This document shows, in pieces, positions 2 through 11,883 of a stretch of DNA of 64,000 nucleotides. Every line of letters begins with the position of its first letter. Position 1 is the stretch's first letter. Position numbers and translations under genes: made by a program. The notes beneath the pieces are model-generated. The model saw nothing but the letters and a program-made list of their open reading frames with translations. It did not search any database and was not told the DNA's origin. This DNA is from Vibrio sp. MedPE-SWchi (GTDB taxonomy: Bacteria; Pseudomonadota; Gammaproteobacteria; Enterobacterales; Vibrionaceae), in contig MPDB01000002.1 in the NCBI GenBank assembly GCA_001874155.1, positions 124,001 through 188,000 of the forward strand. The letters run 5' to 3'.

Positions 2-1486
2 CAACCACTTTACAGCCAAGATAAAAAACACATCCTAGCGGTCAATGGTGAGATTTATAACCACAAAGAGATCCGAGCTCGCTACGAAGATAAGTTCGAT
101 TTCAAAACGGACTCGGACTGTGAAGTCATCCTTGCACTGTATCAAGAGTATGGCTCTGATCTACTTGAAGAGCTTAATGGTATTTTTGCTTTCGTACTGT
201 ATGACGAAGAAAAAGACGAATACCTAGTTGGACGTGACCATATCGGAATCATCCCTCTTTACCAGGGCTACGATGAGCACGGTAACTACTATGTTGCTTC
301 TGAAATGAAAGCGCTAGTGCCAGTATGTAAAACAGTAAGTGAGTTCCCTCCTGGTAGCTTCTACAGCTCTTCGGATTCAGAGCCTCAACGCTATTACACT
401 CGTGATTGGAATGAGTATGCGGCCGTTCAAGGTAACTCAACAAGCAAGGCGGATCTAACAGAAGCGTTAGAGTCTGCTGTTAAACGTCAGCTAATGACAG
501 ATGTGCCATACGGCGTATTGCTTTCTGGTGGCTTAGATTCTTCAATTACATCAGCCGTAGCAAAACGCTTTGCTGCAATGCGTATCGAAGACGATGGTCA
601 ATCAGAAGCTTGGTGGCCTCAGCTACACTCATTTGCTGTTGGACTCGAGGGGGCGCCTGACCTCATCGCAGCACGTCAGGTTGCGGACCAAATTGGTACT
701 GTTCACCATGAAATGACATATACCATCCAAGAAGGTCTCGATGCTATTCGCGATGTGATTTACCACATCGAGACTTATGATGTGACAACCATTCGTGCTT
801 CAACCCCAATGTACCTGCTTGCTCGCAAAATCAAAGCAATGGGGATTAAAATGGTACTTTCTGGTGAAGGCGCAGATGAGATTTTTGGTGGCTACCTTTA
901 CTTCCACAAAGCACCGAATGCAAAAGAGTTCCATGAAGAGACCGTTCGTAAATTACTCGCTCTAAACATGTTTGATTGTGCTCGTGCAAACAAATCTCTA
1001 GCGGCATGGGGCGTTGAAGGACGTGTACCTTTCCTAGATAAAGAATTCATTGATGTGGCAATGCGCCTCAACCCTGAAGATAAAATGTGTGGCAACGGTA
1101 AGATGGAAAAACACATCTTACGCGAATGTTTTGAGCACTACCTGCCTGAGTCAATCGCATGGCGTCAAAAGGAGCAGTTCTCAGACGGTGTTGGTTATGA
1201 GTGGATTGATACGCTAAAAGCAACTGCCGATGCGAAGGTTACCGATCAACAAATGGAAACCGCTGCATTCCGCTTCCCTTACAACACACCGCAAACAAAA
1301 GAAGCTTACGCTTACCGTGAGATTTTTGAAGAGCTATTCCCACTAGAGTCAGCTGCAGAGTGTGTACCAGGTGGTCCATCGGTTGCGTGTTCTTCAGCTA
1401 AAGCTATCGAATGGGATGAGTCATTCCAAAACTGTGTAGACCCTTCGGGTCGAGCTGTACAAGCTGTCCACAATGATTCTTACTAA
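2..1486 (+). CDS. asnB: Asparagine synthase B, glutamine-hydrolysing (5' end missing)
   Basis: Makes asparagine from aspartate, ATP and glutamine-derived ammonia in the cytoplasm. The frame is already open at base 2 and reads class II amidotransferase sequence (ILAVNGEIYNH, then DSDCEVILALYQ), so the gene starts outside the window; the ORF-track start at 305 is an internal Met. About 494 codons are visible against roughly 554 in E. coli AsnB, so about 60 residues are lost, including the catalytic N-terminal Cys. The synthetase half shows the ATP-pyrophosphatase P-loop LLSGGLDSS near visible residue 155, plus SGEGADEIFGGY and GRVPFLDKEF. It ends at a terminator shared with the facing rfaH. The family call is secure; only the N-terminus cannot be inspected. 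Confidence 0.97.
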   Translation, partial: QPLYSQDKKHILAVNGEIYNHKEIRARYEDKFDFKTDSDCEVILALYQEYGSDLLEELNGIFAFVLYDEEKDEYLVGRDHIGIIPLYQGYDEHGNYYVASEMKALVPVCKTVSEFPPGSFYSSSDSEPQRYYTRDWNEYAAVQGNSTSKADLTEALESAVKRQLMTDVPYGVLLSGGLDSSITSAVAKRFAAMRIEDDGQSEAWWPQLHSFAVGLEGAPDLIAARQVADQIGTVHHEMTYTIQEGLDAIRDVIYHIETYDVTTIRASTPMYLLARKIKAMGIKMVLSGEGADEIFGGYLYFHKAPNAKEFHEETVRKLLALNMFDCARANKSLAAWGVEGRVPFLDKEFIDVAMRLNPEDKMCGNGKMEKHILRECFEHYLPESIAWRQKEQFSDGVGYEWIDTLKATADAKVTDQQMETAAFRFPYNTPQTKEAYAYREIFEELFPLESAAECVPGGPSVACSSAKAIEWDESFQNCVDPSGRAVQAVHNDSY

Positions 1487-1504
1487 TCATTAATAACGCA
1501 TAAT

Positions 1505-1531
1505 AAAAAGGCACCACTGGGTGCCTTTTTA
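1505..1531. terminator. Bidirectional terminator between asnB and rfaH
   Basis: The perfect stem aaaaaggcacc / ggtgccttttt has a 4-base loop and runs of A and T on its two sides, so it can stop transcripts from both strands. It sits in the short gap between the convergent asnB and rfaH genes. Confidence 0.85.
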
Positions 1532-1559
1532 TTTATATTCAAGACTGAATGACAAGGTT

Positions 1560-2057
1560 TTACTTCAATTCTAGGTCTTTATTATCAATACTAACTGGAA
1601 CAATGTTGCTGAGCATCTTGACCAAAAGTATCGAGCGCAGCTCGCCATCTGACTCTTGATAAATGGCTTCTATACCAGAGAATTGACCACCAATAACATT
1701 TATCGCTTCTCCCTTCTGTGGTAGTTCAACAACTTTAACTTGACTGCCCTCTTTCTCAATATTTTTAAGAGTAAAGATCAGGTCGCCTTGCACTTCTTGT
1801 GGCTGGCTCCCTAAGCGAACAAAGTCAACGACACCACGAGTAGACCTAACGGACGTAAATGAAGGACCAGATTCAAAATCAAAACGTACAAACATATAGG
1901 AAGGAAACAAGGGTTCTTTCTTTATATTCTTCTTGCCACGTGTGATTTTTTCGAACTCTACTTCTGGATAAAAGACCTCAACAGACTGATTCTCTAGGTG
2001 CAGCTTCGCCCTTTGCTGCTCTCCTCTTTTACAATATAAAAGATACCAACGTTTCAT
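1560..2057 (-). CDS. rfaH: Transcription antitermination protein RfaH
   Basis: NusG paralogue that binds RNA polymerase paused at ops sites and suppresses polarity in long envelope operons (LPS, capsule, pili). The N-terminal NGN domain (about residues 1-100) opens with KRWYLLYCKRGEQQRA, nearly identical to the RfaH start, followed by EPLFPSYMFVRFD and TRGVVDFVR. The C-terminal KOW-type domain carries GGQFSGIEAIYQESDGE. The ORF-track start at 2069 is a TTG with no clear ribosome site; I prefer the ATG at 2057, giving 165 residues against 162 in E. coli. Neither start has a good Shine-Dalgarno. It stands alone, and no ops element was seen in this window, so its targets lie elsewhere. Confidence 0.93.
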   Translation of the reverse strand: MKRWYLLYCKRGEQQRAKLHLENQSVEVFYPEVEFEKITRGKKNIKKEPLFPSYMFVRFDFESGPSFTSVRSTRGVVDFVRLGSQPQEVQGDLIFTLKNIEKEGSQVKVVELPQKGEAINVIGGQFSGIEAIYQESDGELRSILLVKMLSNIVPVSIDNKDLELK

Positions 2058-2297
2058 TTTACTAGCCAATTTCTATTTTTTTGTATCTTAACATATGCCT
2101 TAAATGGATCTAATCGAATTTAAGCCACAGAGCCTTTCATAAACACTTACTCGAAGATTAATGAGTAGTTACAGACTTAAATTAAGCAATCAAACCAGGG
2201 GAAAGCTGGAGTAGAAACCACATTCATTGAGCTGCTAAAACAAAAGTTGGGCGGTTCAATGAACAGCCCAATGCCTACTTGTTTAGATCTATCGCTG

Positions 2298-3260
2298 TTA
2301 GCGGTGGAGTGCGACGAGTTCAGCCATCATATCGATATGCGATTCTCGGTCGTTAAGGCACATAATGTAGCTAAATTCAGAACCACCAGCGTCAATGAAG
2401 GTTTCCTTACATTGATCGGAGATCTCTTCCAGCGTCTCTAGGCAATCGACTGAGAACGCAGGGGCCATGATATCTATCTTTTTGATGCCTTTGCCTGGCA
2501 GTGACTCAAGGGTTTCGTCTGTATAAGGCTTCAACCACTCCTCTCTGCCAAATCGTGACTGGTAGGTCATGGTGATGTCTTCTTCTGACAACCCTAGCTC
2601 TGCCGCGAGCAATTTAGTCGTGGCTTCGCAATGTTGAGGGTAAATATCGCCTTCATCCGCTAATCGTTTGGGAATGCCATGGAATGAACAGACCAAATGA
2701 TCAGCTCGACCATTCTTTTCCCAGTGGCTACGCACGCTATCAGCCAATGCTTTTGCATAACTAGGGTGTGAATAATAGTCTCGGATAAAGCGATAATTCG
2801 GGATAACAGGCATTTGTTTAAAGGCTTTGGTTAGACCATCGGAAACTGCTGCTGTGGTCGTGCCTGAATACTGAGGGTACAAGGGCAACACGATAATGTC
2901 TTCGACACCCTGTTCCATCAATTGCTCAACGCCTGTCTTAAGACTTGGGTTTCCATAGGTCATGCCCAGTGCAACAGGGATATCTAATTTCTTCTGCAGT
3001 TTTTCTACTTGTCTCTTGGAGTAAACCAGAAGTGGTGAGCCGTCATCCATCCAAACCGACTGATAAAGCTTCGCGACTTTAGGTGAGCGAATCGGAAGAA
3101 TTACACCGTGCAAAATTGGGCACCAAAGCCAACGAGTGAGGTTGACTACTCGTTTGTCGTGTAAAAACTCACTCAAAAATCGACGCACGCCAGCTGGGGT
3201 CGCTGAATCTGGAGTGCCTAAGTTCACCAGTAAAACGCCCTGCTTTTTATTATATTCCAT
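2298..3260 (-). CDS. hemH: Ferrochelatase
   Basis: Last step of haem synthesis: inserts ferrous iron into protoporphyrin IX, at the inner face of the cytoplasmic membrane. The 320 residues equal the E. coli length. The N-terminus [15 protein letters not shown] and the motif SFHGIPKR with its metal-binding His are hallmarks; downstream [21 protein letters not shown] and [13 protein letters not shown] (the conserved Glu region) also fit. The start ATG at 3260 begins MEYNKKQG. It lies between rfaH and adk on the same strand, separated from adk by about 275 bases that contain the adk terminator, so it is probably transcribed on its own. hemH next to adk and htpG is also the enterobacterial arrangement. 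Confidence 0.97.
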
Positions 3261-3470
3261 AGATACCTGAGACCAATATGTGATTTTCTGGAGAGTTATA
3301 TACGAACCAACATAAGTTTAAGATCAATCTTCCCCACTAAATGTCCGAATAATTGTTCATGACGTGAGAGGCACAACATCCACTCTCAATGACTCACCAC
3401 CCTGTATAAAAATGAATGGTTCTGAATCACGTTCAATCAGATTATCTGGATTGGTATCGTACTAAAAATT

Positions 3471-3501
3471 AAAACAAAAAAGCGACCACAAGGGTCGCTT
3501 T
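3471..3501 (-). terminator. Terminator of adk
   Basis: On the minus strand the stem agcgaccc / gggtcgct (loop ttgt) is followed by a run of six T. It lies 36 bases past the adk stop codon. Confidence 0.85.
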
Positions 3502-3536
3502 AAATATATCAAATTCTTAAACAAGAAGTTAACGTT

Positions 3537-4496
<960 letters not shown>

Positions 4497-4522
4497 GAAA
4501 AAAGCCCGCCAAAAGCGAGCTT
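4497..4522 (-). terminator. Terminator of htpG
   Basis: Minus-strand stem gctcgc / gcgggc (one G-U pair) with a 5-base loop, then a run of six T. It lies about 20 bases past the htpG stop. Confidence 0.75.
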
Positions 4523-4540
4523 CAATTTTCTATGGTGATA

Positions 4541-6445
4541 TTACACTTTAGTCAAAAGCTTGTTGATAGCGCCAACAAACTGAGACGGGTCTTCCATTGA
4601 GCCTTTCTCTGCAAGCATAGCTTGACCAAGAAGTACTTCAACCCAGCCGCCAAACGCTTGCTCATCCGCTTCATCAGCCATACGTTTAACGAGATCATGC
4701 TGTGGGTTTAGCTCAAAAATGTACTTAACTTGTGGAGCTTCTTGACCAGCGGCTTCCAAAAGTTTCGCCATTTGAGTGCCCATTTCGAAGTCATCGGTTA
4801 CCACAACTGCAGGCGTTGATGCCAGTTTAAAGGTAGTGCGTACTTCTTTAACTCGGTCACCAAGGTAAGCTTGTGTGCGCTCGACTACAGACTTGAACTC
4901 TTCTTCTGTCTCTTTTTGCTGTTCTTTCTCAGCTTCGTCTTCAAACTTACTCAGATCAAGACCCGCTTTCGTGATCGACTGGAACTGCTTACCATCAAAC
5001 TCGGTTAAGTAGTTCATTAGCCATTCATCGATACGGTCAGACATCAGAATAACCTCAATACCTTTGGCTTTAAATTGCTCTAGGTGAGGGCTATTCTTCG
5101 CAGCAACGTAGCTGTCTGCAGTTAGATAATAGATTTTGTCTTGCTCTTCTTTCATACGTTCAACGTAGGCAGCAAGACCGATCGTTTGCTCTGATGAGTC
5201 GACATGCGTAGAAGCAAAACGAAGAAGACCTGCAACTTTTTCTTTATTTGCATTGTCTTCTGCCGGTCCTTCTTTTAGCACTAAACCAAACTCTTTCCAG
5301 AAGCTTAGGTATTTTTCATCATCATTTTTCGCTAAACGCTCTAGCATAGTTAGAACACGCTTAGTACATGCGTTACGCAGCGACTGAGTCACTTTGTTGT
5401 CTTGCAGAATCTCACGAGAAACATTCAAAGGTAGATCGTTGGAATCAATCAGACCACGAGTAAAACGAAGGTATGAAGGCATAAACTGCTCTGCATCATC
5501 CATGATAAACACGCGCTGTACGTAAAGCTTTAGACCCGACTTGTGGTCACGATTCATCATATCCCAAGGGGCTTTCGCTGGAATATACAGAAGGCTAGTG
5601 TAATCATTTTTACCTTCAACTTTGTTGTGGCTCCACAACAAAGGATCAGCAAAATCATGCGACACATGCTTATAGAACTCTTGGTACTCTTCTTCTTTTA
5701 TATCAGATTTATTGCGAGTCCAAAGTGCTTGCGCCTTGTTAATCTGCTCCCACTTCGTCTCTTCCGTGTCCTTTCCTTCTTCGTCTTTCACCGTCGTCAG
5801 GATTGAGACTGGAATACCGATATGGTCAGAGTATTTACCAATAACTTCACGCAGACGCCATTCTGATAGGAACTCTTTACCCTCGTCACGCATATGCAGA
5901 ATAATATCAGTACCGCGAGTCTCTTTGGTTATATCTTCAATGGTGTAGTCACCCTCTCCAGCTGAATGCCATTGAACCGCTTCATCAGATTGAGAGCCTG
6001 CGCTACGTGTGCGAACAGTCACTGCATCAGCAACAATAAATGCAGAGTAGAAACCAACACCGAACTGACCAATCAGTTGCGAGTCTTTACTTTGATCTTC
6101 AGAAAGTTTGGAGAAGAAATCCGCTGTACCAGACTTGGCGATAGTACCTAGGTGCTCAATGACATCATCACGAGTCATACCAATGCCGTTATCCGACAGG
6201 GTGAGTGTATTGGCCTTTTCATCAAATGATAATTTAACGCCTAAATCAGCATCGCCAGCATACAAACTCGCATCTGAAAGCGCTTGAAAACGCAGCTTGT
6301 CGGATGCATCGGATGCATTTGAGATAAGCTCACGTAGAAAGATTTCTTTATTTGAATACAAAGAATGAATCATTAAATGAAGCAGTTGTTTTACTTCTGA
6401 TTGAAAGCCGCGCGTTTCTTTGTTGCTTGTTGCCGTATCACTCAT
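4541..6445 (-). CDS. htpG: Molecular chaperone HtpG (Hsp90 family)
   Basis: ATP-dependent cytoplasmic chaperone working with the DnaK system on late folding intermediates. The 634 residues fit bacterial Hsp90s. The N-terminal GHKL ATPase shows [17 protein letters not shown] (ATP-binding Glu/Asn), [21 protein letters not shown] and [11 protein letters not shown]. The middle domain has [21 protein letters not shown] and the catalytic-loop segment [18 protein letters not shown]. The C-terminal dimerisation domain follows. It is divergent from toxR across 250 bases, an arrangement known from V. cholerae, where heat-shock transcription of htpG was proposed to reduce toxR expression. A heat-shock-like -35 element is noted separately. 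Confidence 0.98.
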
Positions 6446-6695
6446 ATTAGCTCCGTGACTCTTACAATTTCATTGTTTGGTTTAAGGCCCATCAAGGGGC
6501 GATTGATAAATAACATGAGGATGAGGAATGTAAATTCAAGGTCAAAAACAATAAAAACACTGTTTTTTTTATCATTTTTGTTTATGCTACGGGCGAAAGT
6601 TATCAAAGAAGCTAAAATTACAGGTTTGAGAGTTTCAATAGGAACAGGAAAATCGATTGCTTTACCCCCCAATTCACACAATAAAGAAGAGTCCA
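6446..6695. promoter_or_regulatory. Shared htpG/toxR divergent promoter region
   Basis: This 250-base gap lies between two divergent starts. On the minus strand CCCCTTGATG (complement of 6491-6500) resembles the sigma-32 -35 consensus CCCTTGAA upstream of htpG, but I cannot place a good CCCCATNT -10 at the usual distance. The rest contains an AT-rich tract with a run of T at 6562-6569. Heat-shock control of the V. cholerae homologue is established; here it is inferred from position and a half-match only. Confidence 0.4.
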
Positions 6696-7550
6696 ATGAG
6701 CAATATAGGCACAAAGTTTATCCTCGCTAGCCGATTTACTTTTGACCCAAATAACAACTCATTAGTAGATCAAGAAAATGACACTGACCTTGTCCGTTTA
6801 GGTAGTAACGAAAGCCGTATTTTATTGCTGCTTTGTGAACGACCAAATGAAGTGATAACTCGAAATGAATTGCACGAGTTTGTCTGGCGAGATCAAGGCT
6901 TTGAGGTGGATGACTCAAGCTTAACTCAAGCGATTTCGACGCTGAGAAAACTGTTGAAGGACTCAACTAAATCACCATTATTTGTAAAGACGGTTCCGAA
7001 ACGTGGATACCAATTAATCTGCTCTGTGGAGTTAAGCTCTGCAATTGCTTCGGCAAAGGAAACTTTCTCTACTCCTGTAGAAGATACTTCGCCACAGGCG
7101 CTGAGCGACAATGATCAAAACGAAGAAATACCTAAAAATGTCGAAAAGTCTGACGTTAATGAAACGAAGATTGATGCGTCATCGGCGATTCAAACGCGAC
7201 TCGTAACGAACTTACTACTGGTTGCTGCTCTCCTTCTCCCTTTGGTGGTGACTTTATTTACAACGCCGAGTGAGTCTAAGTTTCGAGTCTTGGGTACCTA
7301 CCAAGAGGTGCCAGTTATGACACCGATTAACCATCCTGATTTAAGTCAGTGGCTGCCTTCTTTAGAAGCCTGTGTAAATAATTATTTAAACGTTCATAAC
7401 GGTGAGTTAGTGCCAACCAAGATCATTGCTACAGGTGGTCAAAATGAACAAATCATCTTGAACTATATTCACAGCATCGAAAACTCAGCCAACAATAAGA
7501 GCGTTCGAATCATCTGGAATAAACCAAGCATTAAGAAGGTGTGCAGATAA
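6696..7550 (+). CDS. toxR: Transmembrane transcription regulator ToxR
   Basis: Inner-membrane, one-component regulator that binds DNA directly from the membrane and controls porin, bile-response and, in pathogens, virulence genes. The N-terminal OmpR-type winged helix (about residues 15-110) includes GSNESRILLLLCERPNEVITR, VDDSSLTQAISTLRKLL and KTVPKRGYQLI. A variable acidic linker follows, then one membrane segment near 169-188 (LLLVAALLLPLVVTLF) and a periplasmic domain with two Cys (LEAC and the terminal KVC), the pair known to form a redox-sensitive disulfide in V. cholerae ToxR. I take ATG 6696 (MSNIGTKF) with aagaag upstream, giving 284 residues, not the track start 13 codons earlier. 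It overlaps toxS by one base. Confidence 0.97.
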   Translation: MSNIGTKFILASRFTFDPNNNSLVDQENDTDLVRLGSNESRILLLLCERPNEVITRNELHEFVWRDQGFEVDDSSLTQAISTLRKLLKDSTKSPLFVKTVPKRGYQLICSVELSSAIASAKETFSTPVEDTSPQALSDNDQNEEIPKNVEKSDVNETKIDASSAIQTRLVTNLLLVAALLLPLVVTLFTTPSESKFRVLGTYQEVPVMTPINHPDLSQWLPSLEACVNNYLNVHNGELVPTKIIATGGQNEQIILNYIHSIENSANNKSVRIIWNKPSIKKVCR

Positions 7551-8074
7551 TGGCTAAGCTTATTACTCAAAAAGTCGCAACCGTCATTCTCGCGACATCT
7601 GCATTATTCAGTGCATGGTTGTACTGGGGAAGTGATCTAAAAGTAGAACAAGTCCTCACATCGTATGAGTGGCAGTCTCGAATGATCACAGAGCTTTCCC
7701 ATATTGATGAAGACGCCATTGGCCCACTTAGAAAAGCGGAAGTTAACTCAAACGTAAAATATCTACCAAACGGCAGCTATATTCGAGTTTCGCAAGTCAG
7801 ACTCGTGGTAGAAAACAGCAACAACGAGGTGGTCATCAATATCTCAGAAACAGGAGAGTGGGATATTAGTGATAACTATTTATTAGTGTCACCTAAAGAG
7901 TTCAAAGATGTCTCGCAAGCGCAAACTAAAGACTTCACTGAAGAGCAGCTAAAGCTCATCACTCAGCTGTTTAAAATGGATGCGCAACAAAGCAGAAGAA
8001 TTGATGTTGTGAACGAGAAGACATTGTTGCTGACAAGCTTAAGCCACGGCTCAACGGTCCTGTTTACCAACTAA
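7550..8074 (+). CDS. toxS: ToxR-stabilising periplasmic effector ToxS
   Basis: Membrane-anchored periplasmic partner that binds the ToxR periplasmic domain, shields it from proteolysis and takes part in bile sensing. It has one N-terminal membrane segment (about residues 5-22, ATVILATSALFSAWLYWG) followed by family-typical stretches SDLKVEQVLTSYEWQS, VKYLPNGSYIRVS, GEWDISDNYLLV and KMDAQQSRRIDVVNEK. The start ATG overlaps the toxR stop as TAATG, implying translational coupling; a GTG three codons upstream is the track alternative. 174 residues, against about 173 in V. cholerae. It is followed by a terminator, so toxRS is a two-gene operon. Confidence 0.96.
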   Translation: MAKLITQKVATVILATSALFSAWLYWGSDLKVEQVLTSYEWQSRMITELSHIDEDAIGPLRKAEVNSNVKYLPNGSYIRVSQVRLVVENSNNEVVINISETGEWDISDNYLLVSPKEFKDVSQAQTKDFTEEQLKLITQLFKMDAQQSRRIDVVNEKTLLLTSLSHGSTVLFTN

Positions 8075-9002: not shown

Positions 9003-9548
9003 TTAGCATTGGTGCTCAGCTAGAACCTCACCTTCAAAACTTTGTACCTTCAATTTCCCTGCAGTGTACAAGCCAAAGCTCGCGGGGAACCCATCTCTTG
9101 GAAAAGTCACTGACCCTGGATTGAAGATAACAACGCCCTCTTCAATTTGTGCGACAGGAATGTGTGTATGCCCATGAGCAAGAATATCATTCTCTTTTAA
9201 GGCTGGACGCTTAGTTGAATTGTAAAGGTGGCCATGAGTGATAAACATTCTCTTACTTGATTCCAGTAAAACCCATGTATAGTCGGTCATCATTGGAAAA
9301 TCGAGCAACATTTGGTCGACTTCACTATCACAGTTACCTCTGACGGCAATGATAGAGTCTGCATATTGATTAAGCAGTGTTGCTACTTCAACTGGATCAT
9401 AGCCTTCTGGCACTGGGTTTCTTGGGCCATGATTTAAAACATCCCCAAGAAGAATGAGCGTCGTCGCCTTTGATTGTTCAAATTTCTCAAGCACTCGCTG
9501 TGTGGCTGGCAGGCTGCCATGCAAGTCAGATGCAAAAAATAATTCCAC
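9003..9548 (-). CDS. yfcE: YfcE-type metallophosphodiesterase
   Basis: Calcineurin-like metallophosphoesterase of the MJ0936/YfcE group; the E. coli enzyme is a manganese-dependent phosphodiesterase on artificial substrates with no settled physiological role. The metal-binding motifs are all present: FASDLHGS at the N-terminus, LGDVLNHGPR, VRGNCDSEVDQ, ITHGH and AHGHTHIPV, ending FNPGSVTFPRDG. 181 residues against 184 in E. coli. It follows the CBS gene by 32 bases on the same strand, so it may be the last gene of the DUF1538/PII/CBS transcript, although YfcE occurs independently elsewhere. Confidence 0.93.
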   Translation of the reverse strand: MELFFASDLHGSLPATQRVLEKFEQSKATTLILLGDVLNHGPRNPVPEGYDPVEVATLLNQYADSIIAVRGNCDSEVDQMLLDFPMMTDYTWVLLESSKRMFITHGHLYNSTKRPALKENDILAHGHTHIPVAQIEEGVVIFNPGSVTFPRDGFPASFGLYTAGKLKVQSFEGEVLAEHQC

Positions 9549-9580: not shown

Positions 9581-10003
9581 CTAGAGCCTATTCAATTGCT
9601 CGTCATCTCTTGCCATGCCATTTACGACAATATTATTGTAACTCACCATGCCAATCACCTCTCCATTATCAATAACGGGGGCACGACTGATACCAAATCG
9701 TTCAAATAAGCGTGCACAATATTTAACATTCATATTCGGATCCACCGATAGGGCTGGCTTAGTCATAATTTCATAAACATTCGTTCTGTGTGGCGAGCGA
9801 TTTTTAGCCAGTACCTTCTTAGCGATATCGTTCATCAATATAATGCCAAACTCATCTTCATCATTGCGCTTATTTACAATTAATGCCTTAACCTCGTGTT
9901 TTCTGGCTAATGCAATGGCTTCATTAACTGTCGTTAATCCATCAACCATCACGTACGTATTAGCCATCACATCTCGTACACGAATTTTCTCATGAGCACT
10001 CAT
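9581..10003 (-). CDS. CBS-domain pair protein
   Basis: 140 residues made of two tandem CBS motifs (about 5-65 and 72-133), the module that usually binds adenosine nucleotides. Typical signatures are MVDGLTTVNEAIALARKHEVKALIV, then DVLRID-like FGIILMNDIAKKVLA in repeat 1, and IMTKPALSVDPNMNVKYCARLFERFGISRAPVIDNGEVIGMVSYNNIV in repeat 2. No membrane segment or catalytic domain is attached. Its start overlaps the PII-like stop by 4 bases (ATGA type), tying it to the two DUF1538 membrane genes. I infer that it is a cytoplasmic ligand sensor for that transport system; neither ligand nor partner is shown by the sequence. Confidence 0.85.
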   Translation of the reverse strand: MSAHEKIRVRDVMANTYVMVDGLTTVNEAIALARKHEVKALIVNKRNDEDEFGIILMNDIAKKVLAKNRSPHRTNVYEIMTKPALSVDPNMNVKYCARLFERFGISRAPVIDNGEVIGMVSYNNIVVNGMARDDEQLNRL

Positions 10004-10350
10004 AGTTCATCCTCAACCACTTTTGTTAGTGTTTCTACTTGATGGGCTACCCCAACAGCATCTTCAACATCAATCTGCACAGCGATACCTTGACCGGATT
10101 CTTCATCGAACTCTCCAACCTCGCTGATCGTTTCCAATATATGCCGAGATAAATGTTCTTCTACGACGAAGAGCAGCACATCTTTTTGTACCTCTAAAGT
10201 AAGACCAAAGAAGGTTTGTTTCTTATTCAACCCTTCTCCCCTCGCGTGATTGATCACCGTAGCCCCAGTCGCTCCAGCAGTACGAGCAGCATCGAGAACA
10301 ATATCGGTTTTACTATCCTCGACAAACGCCAATATCAATTTAAAGCGCAT
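10000..10350 (-). CDS. PII-like signalling protein, DUF1538 operon
   Basis: 116-residue protein with the ferredoxin-like PII pattern: N-terminal strand [25 protein letters not shown], a central GATVINHARGEGLNKK segment in place of a classical T-loop, and a C-terminal GQGIAVQIDVEDAVGV resembling the B/C-loop end of PII. The GlnB/GlnK uridylylation motif (RGAEY with Tyr51) is absent, so this is not a nitrogen PII but one of the transporter-linked PII-like groups. It overlaps the upstream DUF1538 gene by 11 bases and the CBS gene by 4, implying coupled translation. A role gating the two membrane proteins is inferred from context. Confidence 0.8.
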   Translation of the reverse strand: MRFKLILAFVEDSKTDIVLDAARTAGATGATVINHARGEGLNKKQTFFGLTLEVQKDVLLFVVEEHLSRHILETISEVGEFDEESGQGIAVQIDVEDAVGVAHQVETLTKVVEDEL

Positions 10351-11134
10351 TTGACTTCTCCTCTGACTTTTTTCTTTTGTTTAATGCCTGCGTGATCTGT
10401 GCGTAAGCCATGACAGATATAATGGGAAATAAGCTCGCAAACGCTATCAACCCAAAGCCATCGATGACGGGATTTCGTCCAGGGACAGTCGACGCTAACC
10501 CCAACCCAAGTGCAGCAACCAGCGGCACAGTCACGGTGGAAGTCGTTACTCCACCTGAATCATACGCAAGCGGTACAATTAACTTTGGAGCATAGAACGT
10601 CTGAATCACGACAATCACATAGCCACCAATAATGTAGTAATGGATAGGGTCCCCTACGACAATTCTATAGCTCCCTAAAGCAATGCCAAACGCGACGCCT
10701 AAAGCAACGGCAATTCTCAGGCCATTGACGCTAATACTGCCACCAGAGACTTGGTTTGCTTTGATAGCGACGGCAATCAGCGATGGCTCAGCAATCGTGG
10801 TGCTAAAACCGATGCAAAATGCAAACAGATAAACCCAGTAGTAATCAACCCAAGACAGTTTCTGCCCAATGGTTAGTTTCATTTCATTAAGAAAATCAGG
10901 TGCAGTGAGTTGTTGTGCCATCATTTCGCCCAGTGGAAATAATGCTAGCTCCAGCCCGATAAGAAATAGAGACAGCCCTAATAGCACATAAACAAAACCG
11001 GTGATGACTTGGACGATATTGTTAATAGGACGTCGAAGGATAGCCGCTTGGAAACCAAATAAAATTGTCACTATGGGGATGACATTAAGAATGGTATCAA
11101 CAAAGGTATCAATGAAATGAGAGACAGTGATCAT
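10340..11134 (-). CDS. DUF1538 membrane protein (second of the pair)
   Basis: 264-residue integral membrane protein of the DUF1538 family, with about six or seven hydrophobic segments. It is a paralogue of the adjacent upstream gene: both contain a PxLxxVAxxA motif after GF(S/G)TT(I/V)AEP and a near-identical block around [19 protein letters not shown] followed by [11 protein letters not shown]. The C-terminus is basic and cytoplasmic-looking ([11 protein letters not shown]). I recall a Halomonas DUF1538 pair (UmpA/UmpB) reported as a two-component Na+(Li+,K+)/H+ antiporter; that is the best functional lead and is not proven here. Its 3' end overlaps the PII-like gene by 11 bases and its start overlaps the upstream DUF1538 stop by 4. 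Confidence 0.85.
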
Positions 11135-11883
11135 CCAATTACCATCCCATAAACCATAACGAACATCATGGGTAGTAATGAAGCAAAAGCAATCAGTCCA
11201 AAGCCATCTAGCATAGGGCTTCTCCCTTTAATGGCAGACGCCAGCCCCACCCCAAGCGCGGTCACTAAAGGCACTGTGATTGTTGACGTCGTCACTCCTC
11301 CGGAATCATAAGCAATCCCTATAATATGAGCCGGAGCAAAACCAGTTAAAACAACGACGCCTATGTACCCGCCGATGATCATGTAATGGATCGGCCAACC
11401 CTTTAAGATCCTCAACACACCAATGAGGATTGCAACGCCAACAGAAAGTGCCACTGTGTATCTAAGCCCATTGGCATACGAGTCACGTTCCTCTATGGTG
11501 TTTGGAATAATTCCCCCTTCTGCAGCAACTTCAGCGGCTTCATTCGCAACAGCAGTCAATGCGGGTTCTGCGACTGTGGTTCCAAAGCCCAAGCAAAAAG
11601 CAAAGAGTAATAACCAGAACACACTCCCCTTTCGCGCAAAAGCCTGAGCCATAGACTCGCCAATAGGAAACAACCCCATTTCTAAGCCAAAGATAAAAAA
11701 AGTCAGCCCTAGCACCACCAAAGCTAACCCAAAAATAATGGACATTAGGTTAGGCAGCGGCTCTTGTAATACCACCAACTGGAAAAAGCTCACCACGATA
11801 ATAATGGGTAACAAGTCTCTGAAACTTGAGAGCAATGACTTTAACAATCCAATTAAACCGATAGTTCCATCTCCATGACACAA
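11131..11883 (-). CDS. DUF1538 membrane protein (first of the pair)
   Basis: First gene of the overlapping four-gene block; about 250 residues with six or seven membrane segments. It shares with its neighbour the motif [14 protein letters not shown], then [26 protein letters not shown] and [14 protein letters not shown], so the pair arose by duplication and probably forms a heteromer. Differences include a loop rich in Glu and Asn (near [18 protein letters not shown]) absent from the partner. The track start at 11883 is a TTG and no in-frame ATG lies nearby; alignment with the partner suggests that translation may begin up to a dozen codons later, so the N-terminus is uncertain. Transport of cations is a family-based suggestion only. 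Confidence 0.82.

Follow-up and report, generated by a model that had tools for sequence, protein, structure and literature searches.

This locus raises the question of what two soluble proteins, one of the PII superfamily and the other a CBS pair, do beside two DUF1538 membrane proteins. The window, that is, the whole stretch of 64,000 nucleotides that was analysed, contains the following four genes, in the order of transcription:

11131-11883, minus strand: UmpA-like DUF1538 membrane subunit (250 amino acids, TTG start)
10340-11134, minus strand: UmpB-like DUF1538 membrane subunit (264 amino acids)
10000-10350, minus strand: PII-domain protein with a short T-loop (116 amino acids)
9581-10003, minus strand: CBS-pair protein (140 amino acids), an optional fourth component

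The genes and their junctions are as the initial annotation had described them: Pfam identifies the products as DUF1538, DUF1538, P-II and CBS-pair proteins, and the successive overlaps between umpA, umpB, the PII gene and the CBS gene are 4 (ATGA), 11 and 4 (ATGA) bases. The start of the UmpA-like protein is uncertain; its longest form begins with the TTG at 11883, about six codons ahead of the start of most orthologues. A gene for a YfcE-like phosphodiesterase (9003-9548) follows on the same strand, 32 bases past the CBS gene, and could be co-transcribed here. We rejected it as a fifth member of the system, since it is found behind the operon in the same genus only. Elsewhere in the window, positions 6657-8074 carry a plus-strand pair that we take, by sequence recognition, to be toxR/toxS-like, and positions 4541-6445 a minus-strand gene that is presumably htpG-like on the same grounds; these neighbours point to a Vibrio as the likely host. 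A comparison of loci shows that the identical four genes recur in the same order in most gammaproteobacterial families that have DUF1538, and this recurrence is far beyond chance.

Both membrane subunits are members of the DUF1538 family (PF07556), with E-values of 3.6e-70 (236 bits) for the UmpA-like protein and 7e-68 (228.5 bits) for the UmpB-like protein, against a gathering threshold of 22.6 bits. A homologous pair from Halomonas zhaodongensis, UmpAB, is reported to be a heterodimer whose Na+(Li+,K+)/H+ antiport in E. coli depends on pH (PMC5484666); it is the two-component antiporter that the initial annotation had named. The window pair is similar in that its two homologous membrane proteins are encoded in tandem by genes that overlap by 4 bases, the arrangement of a two-component UmpAB, and in that its best NCBIfam models are UmpA and UmpB (NF041627, NF041628). 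It differs in falling below the equivalog cut-offs of these models (383.8 bits, E 2.6e-115, against 490 for UmpA; 360 bits, E 6e-108, against 500 for UmpB), so that its substrate may differ. The UmpA cut-off is passed by no genome of our class sample.

The UmpA-like protein has an AEP motif with E106 and a YDSGG motif with D193; among 88 orthologues E106, R158, D193, R221 and D226 are all conserved at a frequency of 1.00. In the UmpB-like protein, the corresponding motifs contain E116 and D192, also conserved at a frequency of 1.00, and arginines are conserved in both subunits as well. On the evidence of the alignments, these acidic and basic residues would suit cation/H+ exchange. By analogy with the one homologous pair that has been characterised, from Halomonas, UmpA and UmpB most likely form a single heterodimeric unit that would exchange monovalent cations for protons. 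DUF1538 is also among the genes used by a machine-learning model that predicts growth pH (PMC13255231), and this listing weakly supports a pH or ion role.

The fold of the transporter gives no hint of the ion, since no solved transporter matches it. The AlphaFold2 model of a fused clostridial homologue (L099) is confident (pLDDT 85.3, pTM 0.84) and has helix breaks in each half, near the AEP and D-x-G-G motifs. A Foldseek comparison of this model with the PDB gave no match at E <= 0.001 and TM-scores of about 0.1-0.2, and searching the PDB sequences with a profile of DUF1538 gave nothing credible. That no likeness to a known transporter was found for one model of one clostridial fused homologue is not proof of a new fold. 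The N-terminal extensions of the DUF1538 reading frames at two loci (L090, L096) are over-extended starts and not domains.

We consider it rather unlikely that, in the lineage of the window, UmpAB carries another substrate (bicarbonate, ammonium or a metabolite, for example), the reported antiport being either a secondary activity or peculiar to Halomonas, and that the PII protein gates uptake in the way that the PII-like regulator SbtB gates the cyanobacterial bicarbonate transporter SbtA. Ammonium, urea, nitrate and bicarbonate are indeed the substrates whose uptake is controlled by the known transporter-regulating PII proteins (PMC10710835 and general background), and both the scores below the equivalog cut-offs and a modelled fold unlike that of any solved transporter are consistent with another substrate. 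Against this, Na+(Li+,K+)/H+ antiport is what the family's only experiments found (PMC5484666), and the use of DUF1538 in the growth-pH predictor points, weakly, in the same direction.

The third protein matches the Pfam P-II profile (PF00543; E 1.7e-10, 41.6 bits against a cut-off of 25), and the best PDB folds for its AlphaFold2 model (pLDDT 83.5) are GlnK, SbtB and CPII (E 5e-6 to 1.5e-4), which confirms the PII fold. In canonical PII proteins, K90, R101 and R103 bind the phosphates of ATP and Y51 is the residue that is modified. The genome contains two canonical GlnB/GlnK genes besides the PII gene of the operon, and alignment of the latter with these shows that K90 is replaced by I89, R101 by G100 and Q39 by N42, that R103 and Y51 are lost, and that the T-loop is about 5 residues shorter. 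The canonical 2-oxoglutarate residues are missing too, while the glycine turn (G-x-G) and the R-G-x-G start of the T-loop are retained. The protein thus has the PII fold and a T-loop without being a canonical sensor of ATP and 2-oxoglutarate.

In the fourth protein, Pfam finds two CBS stretches (E 5.5e-19, 68.7 bits against 24), that is, a tandem CBS pair, whose closest solved structure by sequence is CBS-CP12 (5nmu, E 1.4e-22). Each domain was searched for the ribose motif G-h-h-(T/S)-x-x-D: the first has D59, which is kept in most orthologues, and L56 where T or S is expected; the second keeps S121 and has N124 instead of D, at a position where many orthologues retain the aspartate. Judging from these motifs, it is possible that the CBS protein binds nucleotides. 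As in CBS-CP12, MgtE and MtCorB/MpfA, the CBS pair is likely to be a small-molecule sensor; in contrast to these, it is free-standing, with 140 residues, and shares an operon with a transporter and a PII protein. The initial annotation had read the operon as one unit of translation for a cation transport system with two stacked nucleotide sensors. That the genes belong together is supported, whereas the two nucleotide sensors are not: the PII protein lacks equivalents of K90, R101, R103, Q39 and Y51, and the ribose-type aspartate of the CBS protein is found in its first domain only.

That the genes form one unit is borne out by comparison across genomes: the co-occurrence does extend beyond this lineage, so that the first of the grounds on which the initial annotation could have been refuted did not materialise. 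A PII-like gene is adjacent (on the same strand, within 1.5 kb, as detected with profiles built from these loci) at 191 of 195 DUF1538-pair loci from Pseudomonadota, Bacillota and Chloroflexota, and PII is fused to the transporter in four proteins; such linkage between a transporter and a PII gene of its own is what is expected of a PII-gated transporter. The CBS gene is present at part of these loci. The set consists of 82 loci from a scan of named genomes and two plasmids, nearly all from Bacillota, 49 from samples of orders and phyla (two alphaproteobacterial plasmids among them), 39 from the class sample, which covers many gammaproteobacterial families, 20 from further Bacillota with unfused pairs, and 5 from Chloroflexota. 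Of the four loci with no adjacent PII gene, two (L142, L258) run into the end of the contig; the remaining two (L090, L095) have no PII gene in the 4.8 kb downstream, and a PII of the same type lies elsewhere in the genome. The idea that the unfused DUF1538 pairs of Bacillota are a PII-free subfamily was rejected, since the PII gene is found at 20 of 20 such loci.

The association also holds for whole genomes, in samples that include drafts. DUF1538 occurs, almost always paired, in 126 of 399 sampled Pseudomonadota, and in 52 of 150 genomes of a Bacillota sample. A profile of the operon-type PII, applied to the same 399 genomes with a threshold of E 1e-12 that canonical GlnB and GlnK fall short of, matched 125. 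Both are present in 120 genomes, DUF1538 only in 6, this type of PII only in 5 and neither in 268, so that presence agrees in 388 of 399 genomes (Fisher p 2.6e-87, a value that is uncorrected for relatedness and hence inflated). The 11 discordant genomes are mostly incomplete drafts. One genome (G080) has a PII of the same subfamily and no detected DUF1538.

The linkage is more than the simple inheritance of a frozen operon: the genes stay together through fusion, altered order and insertions. Most Proteobacteria encode UmpA and UmpB separately, many Bacillota and some Proteobacteria as a single chain, and PII occurs as a single domain, as two domains in one chain, or as two genes. At four Bacillota loci (L129, L138, L147 and L148), a double PII is encoded upstream of the transporter, which is itself a single UmpA-UmpB-PII chain whose PII domain follows a linker. 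These fused tails match the profiles of the separate PII genes with E-values of 3.9e-17 to 6.8e-28; the Pfam P-II profile detects the tail in L147 only, below its cut-off, and misses the others because the family is divergent. At another locus (L242), the PII and CBS genes are upstream of the transporter, and at L249 (G562, 3883-5272) an insertion sets umpB and the PII gene about 1.4 kb apart, the PII-CBS pair being kept.

Other arrangements were observed. The double PII protein and the fused PII of the four fusion loci add up to three PII domains per UmpAB, as is also the case at L131, which could mean that there is one PII-like trimer per transporter unit. In L280 (G837, 2342-6268), umpA is seemingly split by an insert of about 2.4 kb, with umpB and two PII genes behind it. 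L061 (G193, 596-4787) has two UmpAB systems in tandem, of which only one is fused; one CBS gene and two PII genes lie in between.

The CBS gene is distributed differently: it is adjacent at 64 of 88 proteobacterial loci and at 4 of 5 loci from Chloroflexota, and the Bacillota set lacks it at all of its 102 loci. This absence, together with that at the other 24 proteobacterial loci, led us to reject it as an obligatory component. Among the loci examined, DUF1538 was never found fused to CBS. The CBS gene is thus optional, while the PII gene is close to obligatory.

A few genomes contain additional members of this PII subfamily away from DUF1538 (L179-L184, from families f53, f63, f76 and f85), which suggests that this PII may have other partners; in L181, L182 and L184 the extra gene adjoins a gene for a protein with an SH3-like domain. 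No relatives of the operon PII were found in viral contigs. The extra genes are in line with the idea that the PII and CBS proteins are merely co-expressed with the transporter and act elsewhere, in transcription or metabolism, for example. We hold this to be highly improbable, since the linkage persists through reordered genes in three phyla and the fusions put PII on the transporter itself.

Near-obligatory linkage, the natural fusion of PII to UmpAB and the loss of canonical ligand residues from PII could also be explained if PII and CBS were obligatory structural or activating subunits, the working transporter being an UmpA-UmpB-PII(-CBS) complex. We find this improbable: the CBS gene is missing from many loci, and the fragment that gives Halomonas UmpAB activity in E. 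coli has no PII gene and no CBS gene among its listed ORFs, although E. coli has GlnB and GlnK of its own (PMC5484666). The activity obtained with this fragment suggests that transport probably does not require PII and CBS, which fits a regulatory role instead; and since UmpAB works without PII, PII is more likely to be inhibitory.

Precedents exist for such regulation. In the AmtB-GlnK system, the ammonium channel is plugged by a PII trimer. As in the window, the transporter gene is followed by a gene for a PII-fold protein, and the fold of the window PII is close to that of GlnK; the differences are that the transporter families are unrelated and that the window PII has neither the uridylylated Tyr51 nor the ATP residues of GlnK. 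SbtA-SbtB likewise consists of a secondary transporter with a dedicated PII-like partner, SbtB being among the structural matches of the window PII, and differs in that SbtA is from another transporter family. Both regulators, GlnK and SbtB, act by direct binding to the transporter, which they inhibit (PMC10710835).

We propose, with a probability of roughly 0.6, that the operon encodes an UmpAB cation/proton antiporter that is gated by a dedicated PII switch, with the CBS protein as a second input. By analogy with the two systems above, the PII protein would dock via its T-loop on the cytosolic face of UmpAB and block or slow transport, and would be released upon a change in a small ligand or in the state of the cell. 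The CBS pair would usually add the second input in Proteobacteria and Chloroflexota, and a second PII domain may often take its place in Bacillota. Several observations argue against this proposal: according to a recent review (PMC10710835), the transporters that PII is known to regulate work as trimers, whereas UmpAB is reported to be a heterodimer; the window pair is under the equivalog cut-offs; its PII lacks the residues for ATP and 2-oxoglutarate; and the related PII genes found apart from DUF1538 leave room for other partners.

More tentatively, and with somewhat less confidence than even odds would imply, the proposal may be extended to the DUF1538 transporters of all these phyla, as PII-gated cation/proton antiporters whose fold is unmatched in the PDB. 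Their PII would sense another signal (an ion, pH or an unknown metabolite), and their second input, a CBS pair or a second PII domain, would be interchangeable.

The initial annotation had considered the part played by the sensors undescribed, and we found no link between PII or CBS proteins and DUF1538 or UmpAB in the literature searched, which included few subscription journals. In the UmpAB paper, a CBS or P-II partner is not mentioned under the terms searched, nor is such a gene or such regulation described (PMC5484666), and the DUF1538 passages of the growth-pH study describe no such partner either (PMC13255231). A DUF1538 transporter regulated in this way would be widespread and is apparently undescribed.

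PII proteins are the classical switches of nitrogen and carbon metabolism, and the transporters known to be under their control are few. The system is open to direct testing, since the regulators are small and soluble and an E. coli assay strain (KNabc, which lacks nhaA, nhaB and chaA) and vesicle assays exist. If our proposal is true, PII is the standing partner of a family of cation/proton antiporters present in about one third of the sampled Pseudomonadota and of the Bacillota sample, which would connect PII signalling with the homeostasis of ions and pH and would explain the real role of many PII genes that are annotated as nitrogen regulators.
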